Below are positions 3,001 to 58,800 of a stretch of 64,000 nt of DNA, piece after piece. The translations under genes were made by a program, and so were the position numbers. The notes below the pieces were generated by a model. The model searched no databases. It was not told where the DNA came from and saw only the letters and a program-made list of their open reading frames with translations. The stretch is from Conchocele bisecta (Eukaryota > Mollusca > Bivalvia > Lucinida > Thyasiridae): assembly GCA_029237695.1 (NCBI GenBank), contig CM055273.1:61369968-61433967 (forward strand). Reading direction: 5' to 3'. Each line of letters opens with the position of its first letter. Within the stretch, counting starts at the first letter, position 1.

Positions 3001-6000
3001 GGTACAGTCCTGGCAATGGAGTCCTGTCAATGGTACAGTCCTGTCAATGGTACAGTCATGTAAATGGTACAGTCCTGTCAATGGTACAGTCATGTCAATG
3101 GTACAGTCAGTCATGTCAATGGTACAGTCCTGTCATCCGTACAGTCATGTTAATGGTACTGTCCTGTCAATGTTACAGGCATGTCAATGGTACAGTCCTG
3201 TCAACGGTACCATCAAATCATTGGTACAGTCATGTCAATGGTACAGTCATGTCAATGGTACAGTACTGTCAATGGTACAGTCCTGTCAATGGTAGTCATG
3301 TCAATGGTACAGTCCTGTCAATGGTAGATTCATGTGAATGGTACAGTCCTGTCAATGGTAGAGTCATGTCAATGGTACAGTCCTGTCAATGGTAGATTCT
3401 AGTGAATGGTACAGTCCTGTCAATGATACAGCCATGTCAATGGTACAGTCCTGTCAACGGTACCATCATATCATTGGTACAGTCATGTCAATGGTACAGT
3501 ATTGTCAATGGTACAGCCATGTCAACGGCACCATCATGTCAATGATAGTCATGTCAATGGTACAGTCCTGTCAATGGTACAGTCTTGTAAATGGTACAGT
3601 CCTGTCAACGGTACCATCAGATCATTGGTACTGTCTTGTCAATGGTACAGTATTGTCAATGGTACAGTCCTGTCAATGGTACAGTCATGCCAATGGTACA
3701 GTCATGTCAACGGTACCATCATATCATTCGTACAGTCATGTCAATGGAACAGTCAGGTCAATGATACAGTAATGTCAATGGTACACTCATGTCAATGGTA
3801 CAGTCATATCAATGGTACAGTCCTGTCAATGGTACATCCATGTCAATGATACCATCATATCATTGGTACAGTCGTGTCAATGGTACAGTCCTGTCAACTG
3901 TACCATCATATCATTGGTACAGTCCTGTCAATGGTACAGTATTGTAAATGGTACAGTAGTGTCAATGGTACAGTCATGTCAACGGCATCATCATGCCAAT
4001 GATATAGTCATGCCAATGGTATAGTCCTGTCAACGGTACCATCATATCATTGGTACAGTCTTGTCAATGACCAATGCTACAGCCATGTCATTGGTACAGT
4101 CATGTCAATGATACAGTATTGTCAATGGTACAGTCATGTCCACGGCACCATCATGTCAATGATATAGCCATGTCAATGGTACAGTCCTGTCAAAGGTACA
4201 GTCTTGTCAATGGTACAGTCCTGTAAATGGTACAGTCATTTCAATGGTACACTCCTGTCAATGGTACACTCCTGTTAATGGTACAGTCCTGTCAATGGTA
4301 CAGTTCTGTCAATGGTACAGTCATGTAAATGGTACAGTCATTTCAATGGTACACTCCTGTCAATGGTACACTCCTGTCAATGGTGCATACCTGTCAATGG
4401 TACAGTCCTGTCAATGGTACAGTCATGTCAATGGTACAGTGCTGTCAACTGTACCATCATATCATTGGTACAGTCATGGCAATCATACAGTCATTTCAAT
4501 GGTACACTCCTGTCTGTCAATGGTACTGTCTTGTCAATGGTACAGTATTGTCAATGGTACAGTCCTGTCAATGGTACAGTCATGCCAATGGTACAGTCAT
4601 GTCAACGGTACCATCATATCATTGGTACAGTCATGTCAATGGAACAGTCAGGTCAATGATACAGTAATGTCAATGGTACACTCATGTCAATGGTACAGTC
4701 ATATCAATGGTACAGTCCTGTCAATGGTACATCCATGTCAATGATACCATCATATCATTGGTACAGTCGTGTCAATGGTACAGTCCTGTCAACTGTACCA
4801 TCATATCATTGGTACAGTCCTGTCAATGGTACAGTATTGTAAATGGTACAGTATTGTCAATTGTACAGTCATGTCAACGGCATCATCATGTCAATGATAT
4901 AGTCATGCCAATGGTATAGTCCTGTCAACGGTACCATCATATCATTGGTACAGTCTTGTCAATGATCAATGGTACAGCCATATCATTGGTACAGTCATGT
5001 CAATGGTACAGTATTGTCAATGGTACAGTCATGTCCACGGCACCATCATGTCAATGATATAGCCATGTCAATGGTACAGTCCTGTCAAAGGTACAGTCTT
5101 GTCAATGGTACAGTCCTGTCAACGGTACCATTATATCATTGGTACAGTCTTGTCAATGATACAGGCATGTAAATGATACAGTCATGTCAATGGTACAGTG
5201 ATGTCAATGGTACACTCGTGTCAATGATACAGTCATGTCAATGATACAGTCCTGTCAATGGTACCGTCCTGTCAATGGTACAGTCATGTCAATGATACAG
5301 TCATGTCAATGGTACATTACTGTCAATGGTACACCCCTGTCAATGATAGTCACGTCAATGGTACAGTCATGTCAATGGTACAGTAATTTCAATGGTACAC
5401 TCCTGTCAATGGTACAGTCATGTCAATGGTACAGTCATGTCAATGGTACACTCTTGTAAATGGTACAGTCCTGTCAATGGTACTGTCATGTCAATTGTAC
5501 AGTCATGTCAATGGTACAGTCATTTCAATGGTACACTCCTGTAAATGGTACAGTCCTGTCAATGGTACAGTCCTGTAAATGGTACAGTCCTGTAAATGGT
5601 ACAGTCATTTCAATGGTTCACTCCTGTCAATGGTACACTCCTGTTAATGGTACAGTCCTGTCAATGGTACAGTTCTGTCAATGGTACAGTCATGTAAATG
5701 GTACAGTCATTTCAATGGTACACTCCTGTCAATGGTCACTTCCTGTCAATGGTGCTACCTGTCATGATACAGTCCTGTCAATGGTACAGTCATGTCAATG
5801 ATACAGTGCTGTCAACTGTACCATCATATCATTGGTACAGTCATGGCAATCATACAGTCATTTCAATGGTACACTCCTGTCTGTCAATGGTACAGTACTG
5901 TCATTGGTACGGTCAGGTCAATGGTACAGCCATGTCAACGGTACAGTCCTGTCAATGGTACACTCCTGTCAATGGTACAGTCATGTCAATGGTACATTCA

Positions 6001-9000
6001 TGTCAATGGGTACAGTCATGTAAATGGTACAGTCCTGTCAATGGTACAGTCATGTAAATGGTACAGTCATGTCAATGGTACAGTCATGTATAAATGGTAC
6101 ACTCCTGTCAATGGTACAGTCCTGTCAATGGTACAGGTTATGTTCAATGGTAAATCAGTCAATGGTACAGTCATTTCAAATGGAACACTCCTGTTAATGG
6201 TACAGTCCCGTCAATGGTACACTCCAGTCAATGTACATCCCTGTCAAGGTACAGTCCTCCAATGTAGTCATCCCCTTTAATGGGTACAGTCATGAATGGA
6301 CACCCTCTGTCAAAGGTACAGTCGTCATGTACATCCGTCAATGGTACAGTCTTACAATGTCAAGTGCGTCAACATACCATCATATCATTGACAGTCAAGC
6401 CAATGTAACAGTCATGAATATACAGTCATTTTCAATGGTAAACACCTGTCTATCAATGGTACAGTCCCCTGTCATTGGTAGTCAGGTCAATGGTACAGTC
6501 AGTCCAATGGTACAGTCATGTCAATTGGTACAGTGATAAAGGTACATTACTATCAAAGGTACAGTCATGTAAATGGTATCCTGTCAATGGTACAGTCATG
6601 TCAATGTACACTCCTGTCAAGGTACAGTCAATGTCAATGGACTTCATGTCAATGGTACAGTCATGTAAATGGAACGTCCTGCAATGGTACTCAAGTAAAG
6701 GTACATTCCTGTCAATGGTACAGTCATGTCAATGGTACAGTCCTCAATGGTACTCCTGTCAATGGTACAGTCATAAATGGACATCATTTAAAAAAAATGG
6801 ACATCCAGTAAATGGTACAGTAATGTCAATGGAACAGTCCCCTTCAATTGTACAGTCAGTAAATGGTACAGTCCGGCAATGGAGTCCTGTCAATGGTAAC
6901 AGTCCTGTCAAAGTACAGTCAAGTCAAGGTACAGTCATCATGTCAATGGTACAGTCCAGTCATCCGTACAGTCCTGTCAATGTACGTCCTGTCAAGGAAC
7001 AGGCATGTCAATTGTACACCTGTCAACGGTACCATCAAATCATTGGTACAGTCAATCAAGTACAGTCATGTCAATGGTACAGTACTGTCAATGTACAGTC
7101 CCTGTCAATGTACAGTACTGTCAATGGACAGTCCTGTCAATGTAGTCTGTCAAAAGACGTTCTGTCAATGGTAGATTCATGAATGGACAGTCCTGTCAAT
7201 GGTAGTCATGTCAAGGTACAGTCCTTTCAAATGGTATTCAGTAATGGTACAGTCCTCAATTGTACAGTCCGTCAATGGGTACATCCTGTCAATGGTGATC
7301 CATGCAAATGGTACATCGTGTCAAAGATACAGCCAGTCAAGGTACAGTCCTCAACGGTACCATCATATCATTGGTACAGTCATGTCAATGGACAGTATTG
7401 TCCAATGTTACACTTGTCAAGGCACCATCATGTCTAATAGTCATCAATGGTCATCCTTCAATGGTACATCATGAAATGGGACAGTCATTTTCAATGGTAC
7501 ACTCCGCAATGGTACACTCCTCAAGTGCATACCTGTCAATATACAGTCCGTCAATGGTACAGTCATGCAATGGTAGTCTGTCAAAAAACTGTACCATCAT
7601 ACATTGGTACGTCATGGCAATCACAGTCCCTTTCAAAGGTACACACCTGTCTCATGTACAAGTCTGTCATTGGTACGGTCAGTCAATGGTACAGCCATGT
7701 CAACGGTACATCCTGTCAAGGTACACTCCTGTCAATGGACAGTCATGTCAATGGTACATTCTGTCAAAGGACAGTCATGAAAATGGTACACCTGTCAAGG
7801 TAAGTCATGTAAATGGTACAGTCATCAATGGAACATCATATAAATGGAACACCCTGTCAATGGTACAGTCCTGTCAAGGTACTTTATGTCAATGGTAGTC
7901 ATGTCAATGGACGTCATTTCAAAGTACTCCTGTTAATGGACAGTCCGTCAATGGTACACTCATCAATATACAGTCCTCAATGGTACAGTCATGCAATTGA
8001 GTCATTTCAATGGTACAACTCCTGTCAATGGACAGTCCTCAATGGTAGTCCTCAATGGTACATCATGTAAATGGTCAGTCCATGTAAATGATCACTCCTT
8101 CAATGGTACACTCCTGTCATGGACAGTCCCCTGTCAAGGACAGTCCTGTCAATGACAGTCTGTCAACATACCACTATCATTGTACATCAAGCCAATGGTA
8201 CAGTCATGAATCATACAGTCATTTTCAATGGTACACTCCTGTCATCAATGGTAGTCCTGGTCATTGGTACAGTCAGTCAATGGTACATCCTGTCAATGGA
8301 AACAAGTCATCAATGGTACAGTGAGTAAATGGTACATTACTATCAATGGTAGTCATGTAAAGGACAGTCCTGTCAAGTTTACAGTCATGTCATGTACACT
8401 CCTCAATGGTACATCATGTCAATGGTAAATTCATGTCAATGGTACAGTCATGTAAATGGTACAGTCCTGTCATGTCAGTCCAGAAAATGGTACATTTCCT
8501 GTCATTGTACAGTCATGTCAATGGTACAGTCCTGTCAATGGACTCTCCTCAATGGTCAGTCAAAAAATGGTACAGTCATTTAAATGGTACATCATGTAAA
8601 TGGACAGTAATGTCAATGGTAGTCCTGTCAATTGTACAGTCATGTAAATGGTACAGTCCTGGCAATGGAGTCCTTTCAATGGTACAGTCCTGTCAATGGT
8701 ACAGTCATGTCAATGGTACAGTCAGTCATGTCAATGGTACAGTCCTGTCATCCGTACAGTCATGTCAATGGTACTGTCCTGTCAATGGTACAGGCATGTC
8801 AATGGTACAGTCCTGTCAACGGTACCATCAAATCATTGGTACAGTCATGTCAATGGTACAGTCATGTCAATGGTACAGTACTGTCAATGGTACAGTCCTG
8901 TCAATGGTACAGTACTGTCAATGGTACAGTCCTGTCAATGGTAGTCATGTCAATGGTACCGTCCTGTCAATGGTAGATTCATGTGAATGGTACAGTCCTG

Positions 9001-11996
9001 TCAATGGTACAGTCATGTCAATGGTACAGTCCTTTCAATGGTAGATTCTAGTGAATGGTACAGTCCTGTCAATGGTACAGTCCTGTCAATGGGTACAGTC
9101 CTGTCAATGGTGCATCCATGACAATGGTACAGTCGTGTCAATGATACAGCCATGTCAATGGTACAGTCCTGTCAACGGTACCATCATATCATTGGTACAG
9201 TCATGTCAATGGTACAGTATTGTCAATGGTACAGCCATGTCAACGGCACCATCATGTCAATGATAGTCATGTCAATGGTACAGTCCTGTCAATGGTACAG
9301 TATTGTAAATGGTACAGTCCTGTCAACGTACCCCCATCAGATCATTGGACTGCTTGTCAATGGTACAGAATTGTCAAGGTACAGTCCTCAATGTACAGTC
9401 TTCCATGGTACAGTCATGTCAACTGTCCATCATATAAGTACAGTCATGTCAATGGAACAGTCACGTCCAATGATACAGTAATGTCAATGGTACAACTCCT
9501 CAATGGTCAGTCATCAATGGTACATCCTGTCAATGGTACATCCATGTCAATGATACCCATCATATCATTGGTACAGTCGTGTCAATGGTATCAGTCCTGT
9601 CAACTGTACCACATATCATGGTACAGCCTGTCAATGGTACAGTATGTAAATGGTACAGTGTGTCAATGGTACCAGTCAGTCAAGGCACATCATCCAATGA
9701 TATAGTCATGCCAATGGTATGTCCAGTCAACTGTACCATCATATCATTGGAACAGTCTCAATAATCAATGGTACAGCCATATCATTGGACAGTCATCAAT
9801 GGTACAGTATTGTCAATGTACATCTGTCCACGGCACCATCATGTCAATGATATACCATGTAAATGGTACAGTCCTGTCAAAGTAAAAGTCTTGTCAATGG
9901 ATCCTGTCAATGGTACATCCATGCAATGGTCAGTATGTCAACGGTACCATCATAAATGGTACAGTCATGTCAATGGAACATCACGTCAATGATACAGTAA
10001 TGTAATGGTACACTCATGTCAATGGTACAGTCATATCAATGGTACAGTCCTGTCAATGGTACATCCAGTCAATTGATACCATCACATTGGTACATCGTGT
10101 CAATGGTACATCCTGTCAACTGTACCATCATACATTGTACATCCTGTCAAGGTACATATTGAAATGGTACAGTAGTGTCAATGGTACGTCATGTCAACGG
10201 CATCATCATGCAAGATAGTCTCAATGGTATAAGTCCCTGTCAACTACCTCATATCATTGGTACAGTCTTGTCAATGATCAATGGTACAGCCATCATTGGA
10301 CAGTCATCAATGGTACTATTGTCAATGTACAGTCATGTCCACGGCACCATCAGTCAATGATATAGCCATGTCAATGGTACAGTCCTGTCAAAGTCAGTCT
10401 TGTCAATGGTAGTCCTAAATGGTACAGTCATTTCAATTGGTACACTCCTGAATGGTACACTCCTTTAATGGTACAGTCCTCAATGGTACAGTTCTGTCAA
10501 TGGTACAGTCATGTAAATGAAACTCATTTCAATGGTACAGTGCTGTCAACTACCATCATACATTGTACAGTCATGGCAATCATACAGTCATTTCAATGGT
10601 ACACTCCTGTCTGTCAAAGGTACTGTCTTGTCAATGGTACGTATTGTCAATGTACAGTCCTGCAATGGTACAGTCAGCCAATGGTACAGTCATGTCAACG
10701 GTACCATCATATCATTGGTACATCAGGTCAATGGAACAGTCACGTCAATGATACAGTAATCAATGGTACACTCAGTCAGTCAGTCATCAATGGTACATCC
10801 TGTCAATAGTACATCCATGTCAAGTAACCATCATACAATGGTACAGTGTCAATGGTACAGTCCTCAACTGTACCATCATCATTGGTACGTCCTGCAAGAC
10901 AGTATTGTAAATGGTACAGTAGTGCAATGGACAGTCATCAAAGGCATCACAGCCAATGATATAGTCAGCCAATGGTAGTCCCGTCAACGGACCATCATAC
11001 ATTGTACAGTCTCAATGATCAATGGTAGCCATATCATGGTACAGTCAGTCATGTACAGTATTGTCAATGGTACAGTCATGTCCACGGCACCATCATGTCA
11101 ATGATATACCATCAATGGTAGTCCTTCAAAGGTACAGTCTTGTCAATGGTACAGTCAACGGTACCATTATATCATTGGTACAGTCTTGTCAATGATACAG
11201 GCATGTCAATGATACAGTCATGTCAATGGTACAGTGATGTTAATGGTACACTCATGTCAATGGTACAGTCATATCAATGGTACAGTCATGTCAATGGTAC
11301 ATCCATGTCAATGATACCATCATATCATTGGTACAGTCGTGTCAATGGTACAGTCCTGTCAACTGTACCATCATATCATTGGTACAGTCCTGTCAATGGT
11401 ACAGTATTGTAAATGGTACAGTATTGTCAATGGTACAGTCATGTCAACGGCATGATCATGTCAATGATATAGTCATGCCAATGGTATAGTCCTGTCAACG
11501 GTACCATCATATCATTGATACAGTCTTGTCAATGATCGATGGTACAGCCATATCATTGGTACAGTCATGTCAATGGTACAGTATTGTCAATGGTACAGTC
11601 ATGTCCACGGCACCATCATGTCAATGATATAGCCATGTCAATGGTACAGTCCTGTCAAAGGTACAGTCTTGTCAATGGTACAGTCCTGTCAACGGTACCA
11701 TTATATCATTGGTACAGTATTGTCAATGATACAGGCATGTAAATGATACAGTCATGTCAATGGTACAGTGATGTCAATGGTACACTCGTGTCAATGATAC
11801 AGTCATGTCAATGATACAGTCCTGTCAATGGTACCGTCCTGTCAATGGTACAGTCATTTCAATGATACAGTCATGTCAATGATACAGTCATGTCAATGGT
11901 ACCGTCCTGTCAATTGTACAGTCATTTCAATGATACAGTCATGTCAATGATACAGTCATGTCAATGATACAGTCATGTCAATGGTACAGTCATGTC
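1..11996. repeat. 17-bp minisatellite array with higher-order repeats
   Basis: The whole segment is built from a 17-bp unit, tcaatggtacagtcctg, with common variants (…cagtcatg, …cactcctg, taaatgg…, tcaacggtaccatcata). At 17 bp per unit this is roughly 700 copies. The array is open at the left window edge and stops at about 11996. Rare variants recur in the same order (for example the start at 1, again at 4226, 5603 and degraded at 10423), so the array has a higher-order structure of several kb. Blocks at about 480-2040, 6070-8640 and 9310-11130 show frequent 1-4 base losses relative to clean copies. Because 17 is not a multiple of 3 and the unit has no stop in any forward phase, all three forward frames read through as a 17-residue repeat; these readings are not genes. 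Confidence 0.97.
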
Positions 11997-14950: not shown

Positions 14951-15831
14951 CGTACAGGAACTGCGTACAGAGAATGGGGAGCTGAAGGAAAAAGTGGCCC
15001 ATTTGGAATCTAAATTCACTGCAAGTTATGTTAAGGGTAGTGACGAGGAGGTGAAACATTTAACAGGATTACCATCATTCACAGTTATATATATATTGTT
15101 TAATTTTCTGGAGCCTCACCTGCCATCCAGTCTGGTCATGCCCAAATTCAAGGTAATGATATTGACATTAGTGAAATTGCGACTAAATTTGTCAAATCTC
15201 TTTCTTGCGTATGAATTTGACACTACTCAATCAACAATATCTAGACCTTTTTACACGGACAATTGACTGTATATACAAGCGGCTAAAGAAACTCATAAGA
15301 TGGCCAGAGCGCGAGACATTGAGAAAAACCATGCCAATGGAATTTAGGAAGTACTTCGGCCACAGGTGTGCAGTGATAATTGATGGTTTTGAGGTATTTA
15401 TTGAGAAACCAAGTGGTTTGAAAGCCAGAGTAGAAACCTGGTCTTCATACAAACACCACCACACTGTGAAATTTCTAATTAGACTTACTCCTCAGGGCAG
15501 TGTGTTCTTCATATCGAAAGCAAGGGGTGGATTTGATGTCAAGGACAGTGTTGGCTCGGTAGCTGCAGAAGTGAAGATTCCAGCATTTACGAAATGTCTT
15601 GATCAGCTATCCCCTCTGGACGTGGAATCAACGCGTAAACTTGCCCACTCAAGGATACATGTGAAACGGGTTATTGGTTCAGTTCGACAGAAATATACTA
15701 TATTGAACGGTTGTTTTCCCATTAATTGTCTCATGAACAAGGATAAGTTTGGTAAGACGGTCACTGACAAAATTGTTACCGTTTCGTGTGGACTAGTAAA
15801 TTTGTGTGACTCAATTGTTGATTTTAACTGA
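14951..15831 (+). pseudogene. THAP-type DDE_Tnp_4 transposase remnant
   Basis: A decayed transposase in two frames. The first frame, from about 14952 to 15260, starts inside a coiled coil (VQELRTENGELKEKVAHLES) and contains a helix-turn-helix like HTH_Tnp_4 (LTLVKLRLNLSNLFLAYEF). A one-base frameshift near 15250 moves into the frame that runs to the stop at 15831. That frame carries the DDE_Tnp_4 catalytic core: the first Asp in VIIDGFEVFIEKPS, then ETWSSYKHHHTVKF and RIHVKRVIG near the C terminus. Between SKARGG and FDVKDSVG about 30 residues expected in the family are missing, including the DRGF motif with the second catalytic Asp. The N-terminal THAP zinc finger is absent because the coding sequence begins exactly at the end of the (ACCGG)n repeat. 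Inactive; ISL2EU/Harbinger-like affiliation is an inference. Confidence 0.85.
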
Positions 15832-34800: not shown

Positions 34801-37800
34801 TTCAAGCTATTTGACAAGATATACAAACTATACACAAATTTAAAAATATATATATTGCATGCATATTATGGTTCATTTTCATCAATGTTCTTAATACAAG
34901 ATCGTTTATTATTGTTATTGTAGATGAATATTAAGAATATTTATATATATATATATGTATAACAACTCCGTAAATTAAATTGCAATAACTAAACTATGCC
35001 CAGAAGTCATTTGTGCTAATAAAAGCATTCATTCAATGCATTATACTTTGTTTTTAACTATTTCAAAAAGATGTTGGCATATAATTACTCGGCAAAATAA
35101 ATATTGCAATACTATGGAGGTGACCGGTTACTTAGACAGTTGGACTATTATATGTGCCATATGAAATCATGATCGATGGCAACTTAAAGTTAGACAACTG
35201 AGACATAATGAATGAGTCTCGATCACATTAGTCTCCCTTTATAATAATGATACATGTATATTAATCGCTTTCCCGCGGAAATATGTGCTTTATTCTTCCA
35301 TTTTTCAGTCAAAATGTGCTTATTGTATGATATACTAATGATATATTGTTGAAAACGTATATAACATAATCATAAATGTTATTTTTAATGAAGCTTTGGG
35401 TAAGATTTGGGTAAATCGTGCTGCCGATGTATCTGCCCGGTTAGCTCAGTCGGTAGAGCGACCGCCTTGTAAGCGGGAGGTGTCGAGTCCTGGGTCGGGT
35501 GCATATTTTCTCATACTGTTACATTTGGCACCCAACGAGGGACCGTGACTGATATATATACTCCGAGATTGTCCCACAGATAATCACTACCCAAAAAAAT
35601 ATGTAATTCGAGGACGCATATTTTCTTTTCCTGTTACATTTGGCGCCCAACGTAACGGGATGAGAAAATATGCACCCGACCCAGGACTCGAACCCGGTAC
35701 CTCCCGCTTACAAGGCGGTTGCTCTACCGACTGAGCTAACCGGGCACAGATACACATCTTCTCTCCTGAGTTACTAGATCCGTAGCGTGACGTACTTCCC
35801 GCCAAATGGAAATTCGTCCTCGAATTACATATTTTTTTGAGTACAGTGATTATCTGTACCCAAAAAAATATATTCGAGGACGAATTTCAATTTGGCGGGG
35901 GAGTATGTCATGGTACGGATCTAGTAACTCGGGAGAGAGAATATGTATCTGTGCCCGGTTAGCTCAGTCGGTAGAGCGACCGCCTTGTAAGCGGGAGGTG
36001 ACGGGTTCGAGTCATGGGTCGGGGGGCCGCACGATTCACCCAAATCCTCATTTTCCCCCCAAATCCTCATGTAATGAATAAGTTATCCAATTAATATGTC
36101 TCAAAACCTTTTAATATCGTTCTTAAGAAGTTATTGAACCCGATTTGAATACGTTTTTATGGTAAAAAGAGTCTTATTTCGATGTTTTAATTTAACTTAG
36201 GCATTCTAGCAACCAAGGGAGATCATCCAAAATAAATTATGAGATAAGTGCAAGGGAGATAAATGTTGTTTGACCCATTTTGGTCAATTGAAACATGCAA
36301 GTTATTTACCATTCCAAATATGCTGCATATCGGGGCCCGTACTGCATAGACACTTGACATTTACGGACGTGGTCATATTTTCAAGCTATATGTGCTGAAT
36401 TTGATTGATTGATTGAGATGAATGAACATTTGGAATGGTAAATAACTTGCATGTTTCAATTGACCAAAATGGGTCAAACAACATTTATCTCCCTTGCATT
36501 TATCTCATAATTTATTTTGGATGATCTCCCTTGGCTGCTAGAGTGACCTAAGAATTTTGCTAATACACCCTTTATTAGGTAAGTTTATGGTAATATTTTT
36601 TTGTCATATAGTATTAATATCTTAGGTAGGCTACAATTTAATGAGACCAAAAACTCACAACAAATAACCTTTTTAGCTCGATTATTCGAAGAATAAGTAG
36701 AGCTTATGCTGTCACCCCGGCGTCACGTCACGCCTTGGTTAAGGTTTTTAGTCAAGCTTGTATATGGAATACTACTGGCCCTACACCCACCATACTTGGA
36801 CAACTTCATCTCCTAGTGATGTACATCAATAACCCCTGATCTATATTTCACCTTGACCTACATTTCCTCTTGAATTACTTAGTTATTTCCCCTTGGTTAA
36901 GGTTTTTAATCAACCTTGGTTAAGGTTTTTAGTCAAGCTTGTATATGCAATACTACTAGCCCTACACCCACCGTACTTGGACAACTTCATCTCCTAGTGA
37001 TGCACATCAATAACCCCTGATCTATATTTGACCTTCACCTACATTTCCTCTTGAATTACTTAGTTAATTCCCCTTGGTTAAGGTTTTTAGTCAACCTTGG
37101 TTAAGGTTTTTAGTCAAGCTTGTACATGGAACACTATTGTGCATACATACACCATACTTGGACAACCTTTTCTCATAGAGATGTACATCAATAACCCCTG
37201 ATCTATATTTGACCTTCACCTACATTTCCTCTTGAATTACTTAGTTAATTCCCCTTGGTTAAGGTTTTTAGTCAACCTTGGTTAAGGTTTTTAGTCAAGC
37301 TTGTACATGGAACACTATTGTGCATACATACACCATACTTGGACAACCTTTTCTCATAGAGATGTACATCAATAACCCCTGATCTATATTTGACCTTCAC
37401 CTACATTTCCTGGTTAAGGTTTTTAGTCAAGCTTGTACATGGAACACTATTGTGCATACATACACCATACTTGGACAACCTTTTCTCATAGAGATGTAAC
37501 AATCAATTAACCCCTGATCTATATTTGACCTTCACCTACATTTCCTCTTGAATTACTTAGTTACATTCCCCTTGGTTAAGGTTTTAGTCAACCTTGGTTA
37601 AGGTTTTTAGTCAAGCTTGTACATGGAACACTATTGTGCATACATACACCATACTTGGACAACCTTTTCTCATAGAGATGTACATCAATAACCCCTGATC
37701 TATATTTGACCTTCACCTACATTTCCTCTTGAATTACTTAGTTAATTTCCCCTTGGTTATGGTTTTTTGTCAAGCTTGTATATGCAATACTACTGGCCCT

Positions 37801-43800: not shown

Positions 43801-46800
43801 ATACTTAGTCTCTTTACAAAACTTAACATCAGAGAAATCGGTTATAACTTCTATTTCCTTGCTTGGATCTGCTTCACATTTCACACACGCATTGCTCCAA
43901 TGGACCTGTACCACCCTGTGACAAATTCACGTTCATGCCAGTGGTACCTGGGCCCACACGGGGGGGTATTCCGTAAGCCTTGCTTACTGACCAATCTAGT
44001 TACATTTAGATCTTCATGATAATTAGATTTAGATCTTCATGTTCATTATGAGATCCTGTCTGTACATGACCTTGCTGTTGAACTAAAACCCCATTATGAG
44101 GTCAAAGCATTTTTTTTGTATGCTCATCACAATAGTGAAGTGTGTAGTTTTGCTATCATTGTCCGTCCATCTGTCTTGTCACAAACATTGTAATTCACAA
44201 ACGTTTAAACCATACCAGGTAGAGGCTTGATACTTGGTATGTAGCTTCCTTAGTGTATAGGCATGTTCAAGTTTATTGGAGTCAGATTGTTTACTGCTAT
44301 CTATCGTCTGTCTGTTGTCACGTTGCAGTGAGATAGCCACCAAGGTGATGATTGAACTCCTGGGAACGTACACTGAGGACAATGCGTCGCAGGCACGGGA
44401 CGACGCACAGAGGTAACTGTCTTTGCTCAGCTCTATGTTCGTCCCTAACCCATGTTCCACCAAGGGGGAAAAAAAGCCAGGGTGCCGTTTCACTAAACTT
44501 TGTACGACTAAAATGTTTGTAAGTGCAAAATTATGATAGTCTGTAAATTTCACAGTTACAATATTTTCTTGTAAACAATTATTGAATTTACATTTATTGA
44601 GCATAGGCTGCATATGCAATATGCAGCCTATGCTCAATTAATGTAAATCCATCAATTGACATTTCCAGACGATCCTAAATTTAAATATTTTAATCGTACA
44701 AAGGTTAGTGAAACGGTCCCCAGATGGCTGGGTGGATGGGCGGAAACTACACCCTCAGCAAAAGCAGGGGGAAATAAGCAATCTAGCCAGATCACTTGTT
44801 TCCGTCCAGCTATCGTCCAAAATCTTTAAAATATACTGTTTATCATTTTTGCAGTGTCTAGATTGGTGTAAATAATTGACAGGTTTTCTGAAACAAACAG
44901 TAGTGTTTGAGATGCCAAGTTTATAATACTGGGTTCGACAACAAAAATAGTAAAGGCTATTCCAGTAAAATCTATATGGGGGGCGGGGGGGGGGAGAAGG
45001 CGTTTTTTGCCGGGGGTAACCTACGACATATAAAAAAACAATTGTCAGCCTACCTACGGTGTTTTAATTTTTTTTTTTTAAACCCAACCACCAATGAAAA
45101 AACAAAAAAAATAAAGAATCACAACCTACAGTAAATAAAAATAAAAATCTAAAAAAATGCAACCTACAATAAATAAAAATAAAAATCTCAACGTACAATT
45201 AACCAAAAATATTAAATAAAAAAAATCTGTTTATTGAATGGCTTTTATACCAAGTCATTTTGTTACATATATTATAGTATATAGTATATACAGTGCCTAA
45301 ATGATATTAAACAATGAAATTGTGCATTTAATACATTAAAATTACACATGTTGCTTTTATTATTAAAATGTGATGTTTATTGTTATATTTGACAAAGAAA
45401 TGTCATTAAGGTGGTGCTCTACCACAGTAGTCCTAACATCGATATCCTCCAAGACATTGGCACCATTGCATCTTGTTATTTACACTATGGCCCAAGGTTA
45501 TAAAATATTGACTTGTCAACAAACTTCCAATTTTTGGACCAAAATCATTACAATTGCCTTTAAATATGGATTTCATGTTTCAGGTCTATTAAACTGTGAA
45601 CATTTTCGTGACCAGTGTAGAACCTGATATAAAGGCTGTGTACCGTAAGCATAGGCTGGTCTGGAAATGCCTTGAAAATAATTATTAACAAATTTTAGCC
45701 GTCAATTTGAATTTGTCAGATAGAATGAAGCTAGATAAATAATAAAAATTCTTACCGTCACATTTCTTGAAATTAGAGTCATGGTTCTCGGACGGAACAC
45801 TTCCCAGGCATGATTAAATTTCATATATTTAGTTTTGAAAATACACATGTTTTTCCATAATCTTACCTGTCTGATAGTTTCACATTACATGCTCACAAGG
45901 AAAACTATTTCAAACACCATGACGAATTTTGCACCCAACCCCTCCTGCTTGAAGAATTTACACACTGACGAATATATATTTTGGAGATTAATACCCAAAA
46001 TTTAACTGACGACAATTAATGCGTCCACAGTACAAATGTACGTTGCAAGGCGGTGCTCCGACGAGTCGACGGAGGATCCATACGTAGAAACAACTTGGGG
46101 ACGTGTTTTGGATTGGGGCTGTATGGCTATTATTTGTTTGGCATAACATTTATAAATATTATTTATTAAATAATTATTAAGTAATTTTCATTTTAAATTG
46201 CAAAAAGTATAAATAAATAACAGTACAACCCAATTGTACTGCTATTTATTTATCCTTTTTTGTTTGCAATTTGAAATGAAAAAAAATAAAAATTTATTGA
46301 TGGGAGCCAGTATAGAAATCGCAACCCCAACTTCTGAAGTTCTGGTCGATACCACCAGGCCTCCGCGTCGATGTAGAATTAGAAACAAAATATCCTACTA
46401 TGTGCGTTCTTGGAGTTGTTTTGTACATTTTGGGAAACTTTTAAACTAACAACAACAACAATTGCTGGGCCGTCAGCGTCTGTATAATTCTTTTCTGGCT
46501 GACAATAACCCACAATTTATTATACAGATTATGAAAACAACAAGCATAAAATATTTTTTATTTCAATACTATGACATGCAATGAATTGTAATTAACAAAT
46601 TTACCCTCCTACAGGTTAAATTATTTTTCGTTGGCAATAACCTACGATAAATAATCAATGGACCTGCCGCTCCCCCCCCCCCCCCCCCCACCCTCCCACT
46701 TCTGTTGGGTCAACCATTCTCTTGTTTTCAGATGCATTATAACCTGCTTAGAAGATCCAAACACATTCTTATTGGACCATCTACTCACGCTGAAGCCAGT

Positions 46801-49800: not shown

Positions 49801-52800
49801 AAGTTGTGGGGGGGCGTATACTGGAGTCAGCTTGTCCGGGCCAACGTCCGGGGGTTTGAGAGCTTAGGGGCGGGGTTAGGAACAAAAGATTCCTTTGTAA
49901 TATTCCGTAAGCTCATAAACTCTATTGTTGTTTAGGGGCTTTTTCATTGTTCTTCAAACAATGGAAATACCCCATAAACCCAAAATGTTGGAACGTCCGT
50001 CCGTCCGAGCTTCCGTGTTTCCGTCCGTCACAAAACTTAACAATTGTAAATCTCCTTTTAACTTCTCTTTCCCTTTGCGGATATCTTTCATATTTTACCC
50101 GCCCCTTCTCTGACACTCATACATCATTCTGCAACAAACCTACGACCCCCATTTATGCCAGGGGTAAAGGTCATGGACTTAGAAACTTAGAAAAAAAAGA
50201 AAACTTAACAATTGTAAATTTCCTTTTAACTTCTCTTTCCCTTTGCGGAAATCTTTCATATTTTACCCACCCCTTCTCTGACACTCGTACATCATTCTGC
50301 AACAAACCTATGACCCCCATTTATGCCAGGGCTCAAGGACACGGACTTATAAACTTAGAAAAAAGCAACTTCTCTTTCCCTTTGCGGAATGCAGTGATAT
50401 TTTACCCGGCCCTTCTCTGACACTCATACATCATTCTGCAACAAACCTACAACCCCCATTTATGCCAGGGGTCAAGGTCATGGACTTAGAATGTCTAGTT
50501 TGCTTTTTTCAACTGGAACCACCATCGCACTCTCCATATGTGCTGACATAGTCTTTTATCTGAAAATGATAGTATGCGAGCTGGAATTCATTCTAGGTCA
50601 GGGCTGACGCGTGGGGGTATTCCGTAAGTCCCCGCTTACTGACAAATCTAGTTACATCGGGAATACACTTTATTTATAGACATATAGTTGAATTTGATAT
50701 TACTTCTTTTCTGAGTTTCGTTTATTTCGAAGAAACACAAAAGCTGTTACCACCATTTGAACTGTCTGAACAAGACTCTTCAAATGGTGGTCACACACAA
50801 CATATACTTTCATTGAGAAAGGATGAAAATAGAAATCATTTTTAGATTCCTATACTGTTTTTATCGAGCTCCATTAATTGGCTTGCCTTAATTGCAGTTG
50901 TTGACGGTGTTTGTCACTGGGAAACTGCTTGAGTACCAACAGTTCTACAAAAACAACCAGGAATTCATCCAGTCACTAGGTAGGTAGGTAACTGGAGCCA
51001 TTTTCACTAAACTTTGTACGACTAAAATGTTCGTAAGTGCAAATTTAGGACCGTCTAGAAATTTCAATTGATGGGTTTACATTTATTGAGCATAGGCTGC
51101 ATATATGCAGCCTATGCTCAATAAATGTAAATCCATCAATTGTTTACAAGAAAATATTGTTAATGTGAAATTTACAGACTATCATAATTTTACACAAACA
51201 TTTTAGTCGTAGAAAGTTTAGTGAAACGGCCCCCTGATGTTTTGTGCCTGTTTGATGTATAGGATATACTGTGGTCTGTCCGATTGTTACACTTGCAACA
51301 TTATTTTGTGGTAGACCGTAGTACCACTTTTCATTACCGCATTATACTGTACAAAAACGTTGATTTTCAGAGTTACGCCCTATTTTCACTTGTAATAAAT
51401 GACTTTTACAAGTTCCAGCTTTTTGAGTTGAGACGTAACTAAAATACCTTTGTGCTTTCATGTTAATAAGAGCTGTATTATGCCCCTCCACATTAGTGGA
51501 GGGGGCATTTAGTGTTACCCTTGTCCGTCTGTCCTGTCCGTCTGTCGCGCGGTAAGTTGTTTGATATTGTATCTTCAATTTGAATGTTTGCCTTGTCAAA
51601 GCGGTACGTGGGGCATCCGTGTTCTATGAACACATTTTCTAGTTATTACCTGTGTTTCCTGCAAAACCAACATACTAAAACTAGATAAACTCAGGGCTCC
51701 AGATAAGTTGCGTATTTGCTTAAAGACCCAATTAAAATTGCCAAAAACCAAATTGAAATCAGAAGAAAGTGTATCAAAAAGCAATAACAAATGTGTGCTA
51801 CCTATATCATGCTGCAGAAAACAATTAACAGACCACAAATATATTATATTTTTTCTTATTTTCCATGAAAACACATCTTGGTATTTCATTAGAATTGTCT
51901 CCAAGGACATGTTTTCATTTCGAAGCAAAGTATTCAATTCTTGCAGTCTGTTGATGGGTAGACAGTAGTGTGATTTTATTTTACCCAATTAATATTTTGA
52001 AATACCCAATTGCTTCAGAAATGATAGAGTGACAATAATCAATTACTAATTCTTATCTGGAGCGCCGAAACTAGAGATATAGATTCGTCAGCATAGAACA
52101 GTAGTATAGTGGAACCTCTCTAAACCGAACAACCTTGCAACATTCATGTGTTGAATTATGACCGAGTTCACTGTCTAGTATCGCTGATGTTTATCAGTGT
52201 TCATGATTGGAATGCACACAGACATGTTCCATTGCTCTTACATCAGAATTACAGTGAAACATCTCTCAACCGGACACCCTGGGGACCTCCCTCCCAGGGT
52301 GTCCGGTTTAGAGAGGTTCCACTGTAGTACTACTCCACTACTGTCACATTAAATCTAAAAAAGATTTAAATGCAAGTAGTTTTTCATCAATAACAAAAGT
52401 CACCCTCACTGGATTTGTTTTGATTTTATGGTGAAAAATTTGGAGATTGACTCAGAAACCTGGCTAGATAGCTTTGAAATGATGTACCGGTAAATAAGAA
52501 AACAAAAGTTAGATTTTGAAAATCGGCCCACAAATAAAAAATTATGTAAACAAAAATCTATTTTTAGCCCCCATGTTAAATTCCCATAGGAAAATCGTTT
52601 TTTCGCAATAAAATAAATTTTTGATGGAATTTCTTCAAATAAATATTTTTGGGGAGGGTGACTTTTTTGTTATTTATGACAAACTACATACATTTATATA
52701 TTCAGATTTAATGTGTTTAATTGATAAAAGTTTATCGGCAGCAAAACGTGGAACAGACAGTAGTAGGTTGGTTTCAGTGTTCATAGTTACTACTCTGCAA

Positions 52801-55800
52801 TGGTATCAGGATTTATATGTATATGAAATGTACTAATACCATCATTCATAATTGCATCATGAAAATTCTACACATGGCAGATTGTGCCGTTTGTAGAAAA
52901 TCAATGATGCTACAGTAAGGTGGAGACATCCAAGGGGCCCAGTAGTTCCCTCATTGGGCCCCATTTTCACCCTCCAAACATTTACGTGTTTATTGTAAGC
53001 AGTAACTGTAATGGATAAAGGGATAGCCCCATTCTGGGTATTGCTGGAATTTAATTATTGTTTTAACTGTAAAAACCATACGAGTATGCTAATTGAACTT
53101 TAATTGCATCATGAAAATTCTACCCGTGGCTGAATGTGCCGTGTGTAGAAAATCAGTGGTGATACAGTAAGTTGGAGACATCCAAGGAGCCGCACTGTCC
53201 CCTCAGTCGGCTCCATTTTCACCCTCCATACAGTTTGTGTTGTGCTACAAATTGCTGCAGTGTCTGACTATGCATTCTGTTAGCTGCTGAGCCAAATGAT
53301 ACTCTGTGTAGTATACTCCACCAAGCAAACAATGCATCTAGAAAATCCTGCACACAGCTGGATGTGCTCAGTGTAGATATCAACGATGCCAGAGTAACGT
53401 GGAGACATCCAAGGGGCCCTGTCGTACTTCAATGGGCCCCATTTTCACCCTTCATACATCGTGTCCTTATGCCATCTGTATGATACTGCAGGTTGATCTG
53501 TATCTATACATGACACAAACGTTGGCTGGCCCCATTTGTCAGCCGTGTACCTGTGTTTGTTTGGGTGTTATGGCATGATCTGAGATGTGGCTGCACAACA
53601 ATACTGTATTGGGCTTCGAGTCTTCTAATGCCTAAGCATGCACTGTCTACTGATTTTATGATGCATCTAGAAAATCCTACACACAGCTGGACATGCTCTG
53701 TCTAGATATCAACGATGCCAGAGTAACGTGGAGACATCCAAGGGGCCCTGCCGTACTTCAATGGGCCCCATTTTCACCCTTCATACATACATGTATAATT
53801 ATCCTTCCTCGAGCCATTTCTGTCTGAAGTTCACTCTGAACATACATGCTCGTCTGGACTGTATAGGATGCACATGTCTCAATGCTAAGGACTTACCATT
53901 TCTGTTATTGGATTATATGGTAAGATACACGTGGACCCGAGATGTTACTGTCTTATGATATTTGCAATTTATTGATTACCAAGCTGCGTACTGGTATGTA
54001 ACTTGTCAATCGTGCATCTAGAAAATCCTACACTCAGCTCGACATGCTCTGTGTAGATATCAACGATGCCAGACTAAAGTGGAGACATCCAAGGGGCCCT
54101 GTCGTACTTCAATGTGCCCCATTTTCACCCTTCATACATCGTGTCCTTGTACCATTTGCCTGTGTATGTGCAGCCTGATTTGGAGATGTACTTGTCTCGA
54201 GCGTTTCCCTGCCAGAGTTAACATGCAGTTATCAGATATCATGGCAAGATACATAATCCAGCGTCATGCCTATGAGTTTTATAACTGGAAGTTTATGACC
54301 TAAGCTGTCTACATGTACAGTCAGTCAACTGATATTAAGAAACAATGCATCTAGAAAATCCTACACTCAGCTTGACGTACTCTGTGTAGATATCAACGAT
54401 GCCAGAGTAAAGTGGAGACATCCAAGGGGCCCAGGTCTACTTCACTTGGCCCCATTTTCACCCTTCATATATGCTTTCCTTGTGTGATTTGTCTTTGAAA
54501 GTGCTGACTGATGAGGAGTTCTACTTGGTGCAAATAGCATATAGCTCATTTTGTCGGCTGGAGACATGTGGTTGTCTATTAAATAATAATTTATTGCACA
54601 AAAATCTTTTTATGATGTGTTCTAACCCATTTCATAAAAGTGATATGACGCACTTAAATATTAAAGCAATGTTGATTTGACAGACGTCGTCATGTTTTAA
54701 ACATCATTAGAAACATCAGTGACTCAATAAAATCTTTTTGTGGAATTTATTGGATTATATGGTAAGTACACGTGGACCCGAGATGTTACTGCCTTATGAT
54801 ATTGGCAATTTATTGATTACCAAGCTGCGTACTTGTATGTAACTTGTCAATCGTGCATCTAGAAAATCCTACACTCAGCTCGACATGCTCCGTGTAGATA
54901 TCAACGATGCCAGACTAAAGTGAAGATATCCAAGGGGCCCTGTCGTACTTCAATGGGCCCCATTTTCACCCTTCATACATCGTGTCCTTGTGCCATTTGC
55001 CTGTGTATGTGCAGCCTGATTTGGAGATGTACTTGTCTCGAGCGTTTCCCTGCCTGAGATAACATGCAGTTATCGGATAACATGCAGTTATCAGATACAT
55101 AATCCAGCTTCATGGCTATGAGTTTTATAACTGGAAGTTTATGACCTAAGCTGTCTACATGTACAGTCAGTCAACTGATATTAAGAAACAATGCATCTAG
55201 AAAATCCTACACTCGGCTTGACGTACTCTGTGTAGATATCAACGATGCCAGAGTAAAGTGGAGACATCCAAAGGGCCCAGTTCTACTTCACTTGGCCCCA
55301 TTTTCACCCTTCATATATGTTGTCCTTCCTTAACAATTCACCCATAGAAAACGTGTACAAACACGATCCAGATGAGCTGGCTTGCAGCAAGCCCTTTATC
55401 AGGATCTACGGTACATGTATTTGTCAGTAATGATGAAGTATAAAATCCTCCATATTTTCTCGTTAACCCTTAGACCACTATCTGTTTATTTTCCATTTTT
55501 ATCATCAAAAACATGCTTTGACAGCACTTTAGAATAATTAACAACATGCTTTGACAGCACTTCAGAATCATTTCCATGTTTTTATTGAGAAATAAGGCAA
55601 GATATAAAAGCAACAGCAGACGACAATTGTTGTGTGTTGTGGTCTAAGGGTTAATGAAAAAAATAGGATGAAACAGTAACTTTTTGAATTGATGTTTTGG
55701 GATAAAATGGTAAATAATGCACGCATATGTAGTGTGGCTATAGAGATTGTAGACGTGACAATGGAGGTTTTCATCTGTGAATAATGTTGGAATTACATTT

Positions 55801-58800
55801 GTTGCTGTGACTGGAGAAATATGGTTTATGGGATTTGTGACCAGTGTAGCTCCTGATCAATTATCACGCTCCTGTAGCCTGAAAACAGTCTATATTGCTT
55901 GAATGCACAAGCTGATCTTGATCTACACTGGCCGCAAAATCCGTAAGCACAATTTTTCCAGTCACAGCCACATACACATATCATACTTAACCCTTACTAC
56001 GCTGAATTAAATGTTGTCGTCTGCTGGAGATGATTCTCATGTGCTGTCAAAACCAGTGTTTTGCTAAGAAATAAAGCAAAAATTAAAAACAGCAGACGGC
56101 AGTATCTGTCAACAGTGTAGGAAGGGTTAATGAACTGACCATCAATATGCACCATGAAAATTCTACACATGGCTGATTGTGCCGTGTGTAGAAAATCATT
56201 GATGCTACAGTAAGGTGGAGACATCCAAGGGGCCCAGTAGTTCCCTCATTGGGCCCCATTTTCACCCTCCAAACAGTTGTTTATTCTAAGCAGTAACTAA
56301 CGGATAAAGTGATAGCCCCATTCTGGGTATTGCTGGAATTTTATTGTGTGTTTTAGCTCTTAAAAACACCTTTTTATTCTAATTGAACATTAATTGCATC
56401 ATGAAAATTCTACCCGTGGCTGAATGTGCCGTGTGTAGAAAATCAGTGGTGCTACAGTAAGTTGGAGACATCCAAGGGGCCGCACTGTCCCCTCAGTCGG
56501 CTCCATTTTCACCCTCCATACACACACCATTGTGATGAGTAAAACCTACACAATGGATGTCTGAGATGTATTAAGATACAGCACTGTCTGTCCATCCATC
56601 TAGTTTAGTGTCTATGTAATAACTTTTCCAATCCAGTTTACTTCATTTTAAATGTACAGTCAAGCACCAGTATCTCGAAGTCGAAGGGAGATCATATTTT
56701 AGTCGAGATAGGACTAGGTTCGAGATACCGAGGAAGTGACATGGTCAAATATTTTCGCAAAAAAATATCAAATTATGTTACCCATCACATCACGAGTAAA
56801 CAATAAAGGAATAATGAAACAAAACATGTGTTGCTTTTATTATTTTATATACCAATTAATTGACAAACAACAATATGAACATTACATACATTATATATAT
56901 GTATTCAATAGACAATAAATATGTCACTAACTAACAAGGAAATAAAGTTGTGTTTACATAATGAGTAACATATAATACAAGAAACAGAAACGAAACGAAA
57001 TGGACACCGTCACCGTCAGGTCTCGTGAAGAAGCCCTTGCTTCGTACACCAGCGTCTATACAGCTGTGTGAAGAATGCCGCGGACTTTGACAGGGCGTTA
57101 AGAATGTCATGTGGCACGTCGAGATATGCTTAATGAATCGTGTCAAACACTCAAACAAATCGAGGTGGACCGATTAAGCAAACAACCCGAGGCGGGTGTG
57201 AATTTATTTTGTTTCGTTTGATAATAGGTTTTGAAAATTAGTGTTAACCAAATTGATCTTGGCAGCCAGGCGCTTGGGTGATTTACCCAAGCGTTTATGT
57301 GATAGCGAAGTGATTTTTAATGTATTTTTATACGAAGGGGACTGAATGAACAGTCGAGATAGAGAACATGTTCGAGATAGGGCATGTTCGAGATAGCCGA
57401 GGAAAGTTACATTAAACAAATAAGGATATAATTTGGGACTTTAGCGAATCATTGAGATAGGGGATACCATCGAGATACTGACGTTCGAGGTACTGGTGCT
57501 CGACTGTACTTGATATAATTATGGCTTTGTCTACATTGAGATTACTATTACTATGCTGAATTTATGTTTTTGTCGTCTGCCGGAACTGTTTTATTTTCAA
57601 TATTTCTCGACAAAAAACCTGTTTCGACAACACATGAGAATCGTCTCCACGTGCTCATAGATTCTCATGTGCTGTCAAAACCGTTTTTGTTTTAAGAATT
57701 AAGGCAAAAATGATAAACAACAACCGGCAATTTCCGTCTCCAGTGTAGTGAGGGTTAAATGCAAGTTTTGTTCCAAAATACATGTAGAAGTGGTCCACCT
57801 TTTTACCTGGCTAGCTTTGCCCGATTGGTCACATGGATTACATTCAATCCTTGCCCAAGGTATGCAAAATGCTTTCATGGTATTTCAATCTCACTTTTGG
57901 ATGATACTTGAACTGAGGCCCCATCTCCTTTTTGATCTAACTGTTGCTGGGACCTTAAACCCTTTTACATTTTTAGCCTGCCACAAACTTATGCATTCCT
58001 CGGCCACTATAACAGCTACGGCTACCAATAAATAACTTTGCTATCCGGATTCCGGAGTACTTTCTTACCTCCATTCTTCGGCCACTCAATGAAATAGTAC
58101 GGATCCTACTAAAACTTAGCATTGCTTTTCACCATGTCGGTGTGCAATACTGTGGAATTCGACAATGGTGTAATTGTGTTACCTGTGCTTATTGCCCACT
58201 AGTCTTACAGCTTTCATTGATATATGCTACCAGTCGGGACGCATTTCTAGTCACACGGATGACATATTTTATACGTGTTTGCCTGCAGGCCTATCACATG
58301 AGGAGAACCTGCGGAAAATGCGATTGCTGACCTTCATGCAAATGGCAGAGGGCAGGAAGGACATCGACTACGCGAGTATACAGCGGGAAATGGACATAGG
58401 AGAGGATGGCGTCGAGGACTTCATTATTGATGGTACGTCCGAGCAGGATGCTTGTATATCTGGGGCCCGTTTCACTAAACTTTGTACCACAAAAATGTTT
58501 GTATGAAGATTTCACTTCACACATCAATGTGGTTCCTTAATATTACCATCTTCCACCTACATGTAGCATGGGGAAACATGAAACCAACATTCAACAAAAT
58601 GTTTCACACATAATTTACACGACAAAATTGGTCTTCCTGAGTATGACACCAGTGTATCCTTAGATCAGGCTGCTCATCTATGATCTACAGCGTTGCCCAT
58701 TAAATTGGGGAAGCATTCCTAGTGACTAATAAGGCTTAAAAAAGCTGGGTGATGTGCACAACCTGACCCTATGGAGACATTTCTGAAATAAAAGGGCAAA

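Follow-up and report, generated by a model that had tools for sequence, protein, structure and literature searches.

We analysed a window of 64,000 nucleotides (nt) from the bivalve Conchocele bisecta (GenBank assembly GCA_029237695.1, contig CM055273.1, forward-strand positions 61,369,968 to 61,433,967; all coordinates below count from its first letter) and found that intron 7 of the gene eIF3m holds ten related units of about 130 nt. With a probability of roughly 0.87, we interpret them as box H/ACA small nucleolar RNAs (snoRNAs) of the SNORA14 family, that is, as paralogous genes amplified within this intron and working as proposed below. An H/ACA array had been suggested here in an earlier note on the same DNA, and this identity is supported by the computed match of the best two units to the SNORA14 model, the two-hairpin fold, the boxes and their spacing, complementarity to a ribosomal RNA (rRNA) target named beforehand (U966 of human 18S rRNA), and units of subfamily A that have diverged less than their spacers in one of two duplicated blocks. 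Sequence reading and alignment of the ten units showed that every unit start given in that note was correct, and that the described order of hairpin, ANANNA box, hairpin and ACA or AUA is present on the host-gene strand in 10/10 units. The units fall into two subfamilies, A and B, and are listed below with their H box, tail box and score against the Rfam SNORA14 model (RF00397, gathering threshold 36 bits).

52854-52983, + strand: u1, subfamily A; ACAGTA, ACA; 37.5 bits, above gathering; fold z -6.48
53106-53235, + strand: u2, subfamily A; ACAGTA, ACA; consensus disrupted at two pairs; 29.0 bits, below gathering
53334-53461, + strand: u3, subfamily B; AGAGTA, ACA; 26/26 consensus pairs intact; 25.0 bits, below gathering
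53663-53791, + strand: u4, subfamily B; AGAGTA, ACA; consensus disrupted at one pair; 22.4 bits, below gathering
54014-54142, + strand: u5, subfamily B; AGACTA, ACA; consensus disrupted at one pair; 21.4 bits (E 1.2 when 5.5 kb were searched), below gathering
54347-54475, + strand: u6, subfamily B; AGAGTA, AUA in place of ACA; two consensus pairs broken; 28.1 bits, below gathering
54855-54983, + strand: u7, subfamily B; AGACTA, ACA; 26/26 pairs intact; block duplicate of u5; 27.7 bits, below gathering; fold z -4.21
55193-55321, + strand: u8, subfamily B; AGAGTA, AUA; three pairs broken; block duplicate of u6; 24.4 bits, below gathering
56149-56278, + strand: u9, subfamily A; ACAGTA, ACA; block duplicate of u1; 40.9 bits, above gathering and the top family match; fold z -5.76
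56396-56525, + strand: u10, subfamily A; ACAGTA, ACA; copy of u2 by block duplication; 30.5 bits, below gathering

Scoring by covariance model, proposed in the earlier note as a check, favoured the family in part: u9 and u1 exceed the RF00397 gathering threshold, whereas the other eight units (21.4-30.5 bits) fall below it, although they are linked to u1 and u9 by 76-87% identity. A whole-window Rfam scan with E values of at most 2 listed seven units under SNORA14, and all its matches to snoRNAs or small Cajal body-specific RNAs overlapped units. Hits to SCARNA3, SNORA55 and SNORA68 in the permissive search that gave the eight lower scores were dropped as overlapping units and below gathering. 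We also built a covariance model from the ten units and searched both strands of the 64 kilobases (kb) with it. The search returned ten full-length + strand copies at 135-155 bits, a match by construction, and no other full-length copy on either strand of the window. The only further hits were six weak ones on the - strand (18.7-32.8 bits), all of which overlap a unit together with the flank to its left.

The host assignment was borne out by exon mapping and protein matches. Host exons were located by tblastn with the human eIF3m sequence and by exon reading; their joined translations match the eIF3 subunit M chains of PDB (E 4e-122) and carry the Pfam domains PCI and eIF3m_C_helix. Counting the coding exons found, exon 7 (50898-50979) precedes the array and exon 8 (58289-58432) comes after it; the intron between them is given here.

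50980-58288, + strand: host intron, number 7 of eIF3m (7,309 nt), from tblastn and exon reading

The acceptor CAG of this intron ends at 58288. For the donor, 50980 was chosen because the resulting frame (S-L-G/L-S) fits human, whereas a donor matrix favours 50984, which would change the reading frame. All ten units lie within these bounds and on one strand. Intron 7 also contains, at 51066-51141, a match to the mir-26 model, and a second such match lies at 44576-44658; both are found on both strands at 38.7-41.8 of 57 bits, below gathering, and are probably palindromic repeats.

The boxes and the fold agree with the H/ACA class. The H box reads ACAGTA in four units, AGAGTA in four and AGACTA in two, so that ANANNA is satisfied throughout, and the tail box three nt before the predicted 3' end is ACA in 8/10 and ATA (AUA in the RNA) in u6 and u8, a variant that occurs at the ACA position of other H/ACA RNAs. 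From the upper stem, the H box is 14-15 nt away and the ACA box 15 nt away in every unit; about 14-16 nt is expected between pocket and box in H/ACA snoRNAs. RNAalifold gave a consensus of hairpin, hinge, hairpin and tail with 26 pairs, and 95.4% of the 260 pair cells can pair, compared with 30.8-47.7% when partners were slid by 1-3 columns. Five units (u1, u2, u7, u9 and u10) are clearly more stable than their dinucleotide shuffles (z -4.1 to -6.5), and enforcing the consensus pairs costs only 0.0-2.9 kcal/mol over the free minimum in all ten. The covariation score was matched by 1/500 shuffles, a contrast that the kinship of the units inflates.

We further scanned the guide pockets against 663 uridines, comprising 395 in human 18S rRNA (the sequence used is 1,869 nt long, which equals the published length) and 268 in the last 1,396 nt of human 28S rRNA. 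Two pattern scans of viral contigs for a further 18S sequence gave 0 hits each. For the 3' pocket, 18S U966 was the top site in 10/10 units (score 27). The pocket is given here for u9.

56223-56266, + strand: 3' pocket of u9, predicted guide for 18S U966; AUCCAA (56223-56228) and AUUUUCACC (56258-56266) on the 5' and 3' sides of the upper stem

At U966 itself, shuffled pockets reached the observed score in 2/1000 cases for each of three distinct pockets. As a positive control, the Rfam SNORA14 consensus ranked U966 first at 28.7, with a runner-up at 23.1. Conservation points the same way, with 16/17 columns of the 3' pocket invariant over the ten units versus 5/15 in the loop of that hairpin. 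Human SNORA14A, which arises from POR intron 1, guides 18S U966 (PMC9886955), a position at which human 18S rRNA carries pseudouridine to 89% (PMC6182160).

The 5' pocket gave a second candidate. In both subfamilies its best fit was one 28S stretch, CUUGAUC-UU-GAUUUUCA, with scores of 24-26; within the central UU, the second U fits best in A units, whereas in B units the first leads by one point. Human 28S rRNA has pseudouridines 4263, 4266, 4269 and 4282 and Um 4276 in that stretch (PMC6182160). If their spacing is matched to the scanned sequence, the second U would be the known pseudouridine 4266; a count from the 3' end, at an assumed length of 5,070, gives 4297. At the 28S site itself, which was picked after looking, 0-4/1000 shuffled 5' pockets scored as high. 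We treat this target as a lead with modest evidence, because 25-130/1000 shuffled pockets reached the same score somewhere among the 663 uridines. It is slightly strengthened by the agreement of two diverged subfamilies, which nevertheless share ancestry, and the stretch is absent from the five best sites of the Rfam consensus 5' pocket. In the 5' hairpin, 11/18 pocket columns and 1/7 loop columns are invariant. The best other candidates, drawn from scans of 18S rRNA, 5.8S rRNA and small nuclear RNAs, scored below the 28S stretch: U5 position 12 at 18.7 (u1, u9) and 22.7 (u2, u10), 18S 892 at 17.1, and 18S 1677 at 17.7 in B units. U5 position 12 is only two points behind in u2 and u10, where the 28S score is 24.7.

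Comparison of the units and their spacers indicated how the array grew. Subfamily A (u1, u2, u9 and u10) and subfamily B (u3-u8) stand in the order A A B B B B B B A A; identity is 72-79% between them and 86-96% within each. Two blocks were duplicated with the spacers included, which accounts for part of the growth of the array.

52847-53232, + strand: block with u1 and u2, copied at 56140-56522 (u9 and u10), 91.5% identity over 389 aligned columns
53905-54481, + strand: block with u5 and u6, copied at 54747-55327 (u7 and u8), 95.5% identity over 582 aligned columns

The claim that spacers are unrelated between most neighbours therefore stands outside the copied blocks, where they mostly fail to align, but not for the blocks themselves, which include spacers. 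Clear flank similarity outside the blocks was confined to the right flanks of u5/u6 and u6/u7; for a few left flanks the similarity was reached by just 2-5/200 shuffles, about chance level for 90 comparisons. The rest of the array may stem from earlier duplication with constraint on the units, from gene conversion confined to them, or from movement of the units alone. In the older block (u1+u2 versus u9+u10), the units are 97.3% identical (249/256) and the spacers 86.3% (107/124; Fisher P = 0.00014), which, as a pattern of sequence divergence, fits selection on the A units or conversion limited to units. The u8-u9 spacer also contains an inverted repeat (55800-55972) with 60-nt arms, 77% complementary and 53 nt apart, that resembles a small inverted-repeat element.

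Because similarity between most units ends at or near the unit ends while spacers do not align, as for insertions, and because other repeats are present in intron 7, we considered whether a short interspersed element (SINE) or other transposable element that folds like an H/ACA RNA had inserted ten times. This origin appears very improbable, and a SINE or retroposon was rejected as the principal explanation. Simple scans of all ten units found no A box, a B-box core with 2-3 mismatches at best, no run of A longer than 4 nt within the 25 nt downstream of a unit and no exact flanking repeat longer than 7 nt, and thus neither RNA polymerase III boxes nor an A tail or target-site duplication. All units lie on one strand, and the 64 kb hold no further full-length copy, although they are too short to exclude a dispersed family of hundreds. 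Neither the SNORA14 match nor a best-conserved guide for U966 is expected of a transposon, and the duplication of two blocks together with their spacers also argues against insertion.

Several results weigh against the SNORA14 interpretation or parts of it. Eight units are below gathering on RF00397, the weakest (u5) being listed at an E value of 1.2 under a permissive threshold. Five units, all of subfamily B (u3-u6 and u8), are no more stable than dinucleotide shuffles (z -1.4 to -1.9), and only u2 and u10 adopt the complete consensus shape at the free minimum, one or both hairpins being partly rearranged in the other units. Two-sided pair changes occur at three pairs, and covariation alone is weak because 92/500 shuffles do likewise. 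With respect to the 3' pocket, shuffled versions scored 27 at any site in 46-118/1000 cases, so the U966 target rests on the site being fixed beforehand by the family; the agreement of all ten units does not amount to ten independent results, since the pockets are homologous. The 3' guide has one U beyond the family consensus, so that U965 is possible, by eye, as the modified base. The rRNA targets are human sequences, with 28S covered over its last ~1.4 kb, and a chicken survey assigns the 18S-927 target of the ACA14 homologue to the 5' pocket, in conflict with the 3' assignment made here (PMC2653536). As for constraint, gene conversion limited to the units could also produce the contrast in the older block, and the younger block (u5+u6 versus u7+u8) has none: its units are 96.9% identical (250/258) and its spacers 96.5% (306/317; P = 1). 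On this sequence comparison, the younger block says nothing in favour of constraint on the latest B copies. Finally, AUA replaces ACA in u6 and u8, and u8 breaks three consensus pairs.

The last of these points, the B copies that fold like shuffles and the equal divergence of units and spacers in the younger block would also fit an array in which one or a few SNORA14 genes work and the rest are snoRNA pseudogenes derived by duplication. This alternative overlaps with the reading we prefer, since the identity is the same and only the number of working copies is smaller, and we regard it as a serious possibility, though one we would not bet on. Some B copies may be decaying, and u8 is the likeliest of them. 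On the other hand, the 3' guide score is equal across the ten units, no H box departs from ANANNA, the A units are less diverged than their spacers, and the B units have remained 86-96% alike while most B spacers have ceased to align.

If the ten units are SNORA14-family genes, we infer their expression, protein binding, modification of rRNA, a dosage purpose and the release of inner copies from the shared intron, along the following lines. The eIF3m precursor messenger RNA would supply intron 7 with its ten units, and the core H/ACA proteins (dyskerin, GAR1, NOP10 and NHP2) would assemble on each ~130-nt unit while the rest of the intron is removed. The mature RNAs would then direct pseudouridylation at the 18S equivalent of human U966 through the 3' pocket, and the 5' pocket would probably direct a 28S site in the stretch described above. 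Ten copies would increase the supply of one guide pair. For introns with two snoRNAs, the outcome of end trimming has been reviewed (PMC11028025); because ordinary trimming of a debranched intron from its two ends would free only the outer copies or leave long RNAs with snoRNA ends, the inner copies would need cleavage between units or a release independent of splicing. Ten units in one intron make this release a directly addressable question.

Two further explanations bear on this step. Firstly, the end units might protect long snoRNA-ended RNAs (sno-lncRNAs) that have a function of their own, in place of ten single snoRNAs. Usual trimming of an intron with two snoRNAs can yield such RNAs, including the H/ACA-ended SLERT (PMC11028025), but most spacers do not align outside the copied blocks, which lends no support to a function of the sequence between units, and we consider this outcome unlikely. 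Secondly, hidden small exons in intron 7 could give each snoRNA its own intron and so keep the rule of one snoRNA per intron. Donor-like sites at 53920 (ATG/GTAAGA) and 54762 (ATG/GTAAGT), about 94 nt upstream of u5 and u7, are strong, at 8.2 and 9.9 bits (scores attained in 16/200 and 11/200 spacer shuffles), and TGTGCAG acceptor-like sites follow 31 nt downstream of these units. Those acceptors are ordinary, however, being equalled in 79/200 and 89/200 shuffles. In the eight remaining units, the best donor and best acceptor are no better than those of shuffled spacers (50-194/200). Mini-introns around each unit are thus unsupported for 8/10 by a splice test that is itself weak, as its matrix gives eIF3m's own acceptors -2.5 to 6.6, and on balance hidden exons seem quite unlikely.

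A fuller history can be sketched only speculatively, and we think it rather doubtful as a whole: a SNORA14 lineage would have gained a 28S-directed 5' pocket, multiplied within the intron and split into two subfamilies that kept both targets, its copies being freed by cleavage between units. If this were true, the dose of two ribosomal pseudouridines would be tied to eIF3m transcription. The array also offers an example in which the level of modification may depend on how many copies of one guide pair are present.

Elsewhere in the window, another eIF3m intron has three Rfam transfer RNA (tRNA) matches within 600 bp (35435-36025), two of which ARAGORN likewise identifies as tRNA-Thr (TGT), one on each strand; the three form either a small tRNA cluster or tRNA-derived repeats. 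An open frame at 15205-15831 carries a DDE_Tnp_4 transposase domain (Pfam PF13359, E 5e-28). Several open frames of MVQSCQWYS type on the + strand at 794-9705 apparently derive from short tandem repeats, and the repeat-rich segment 13934-15059 has several open frames on each strand, including long runs of SGPVR/TGPDR type.

Intronic H/ACA snoRNA clusters have reportedly been described in Drosophila, in work of 2004 by Huang et al., and since they were reported there the present arrangement is rare but not without precedent. The earlier note's view of ten snoRNAs in one intron as unusual accordingly holds as to rarity, though not as a claim of something unprecedented, and by their title the Drosophila clusters share with this array the occurrence of multiple intronic H/ACA genes in an invertebrate. 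One snoRNA per intron, as that note assumed, is the predominant rule in animals (PMC1821038; PMC11028025). Trimming from the ends of such an intron leaves one protected particle. Fly snoRNA clusters are mostly spread over different introns of one host (PMC5932544), and a preprint names clusters at the Uhg1-8, lola, Arpc2 and dom loci (PMC13228274). Among the matches listed in searches of open-licence PubMed Central (PMC) papers, some queries being weakened by the slash in the spelling of H/ACA, none described an animal intron, in eIF3m or elsewhere, with ten paralogues from a single H/ACA family; the only one with both eIF3m and SNORA14 reports EIF3M as a protein upregulated by SNORA14A (PMC9886955).

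The nearest known counterpart is human SNORA14A (RF00397; 135 nt, POR intron 1), which has the same length, two hairpins, H and ACA boxes and a 3' pocket against 18S U966. The array differs from it in its host, eIF3m, in its ten copies, in one extra U in the 3' guide and in a different 5' pocket that fits 28S rRNA. A large tandem expansion of one snoRNA family in one host transcript is also known from SNORD115 and SNORD116 of human SNHG14, but these are C/D-like and occupy 48 and 29 separate introns (PMC11608373), whereas here ten H/ACA units share a single intron. More than one snoRNA per intron has likewise been found in plant intronic clusters and in a Plasmodium intron, the latter with two C/D snoRNAs compared with ten paralogues of one H/ACA family here (PMC2656528). 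In humans, retrotransposition is considered the main route of spread for H/ACA families, as recombination inside the host gene is for C/D families (PMC8178906); the H/ACA copies described here multiplied within a single intron, two groups of them as blocks that include flanking sequence. The SNORA14 family and intronic clustering are thus already known, and what is new is the presence of ten copies in one animal intron together with a candidate second target.

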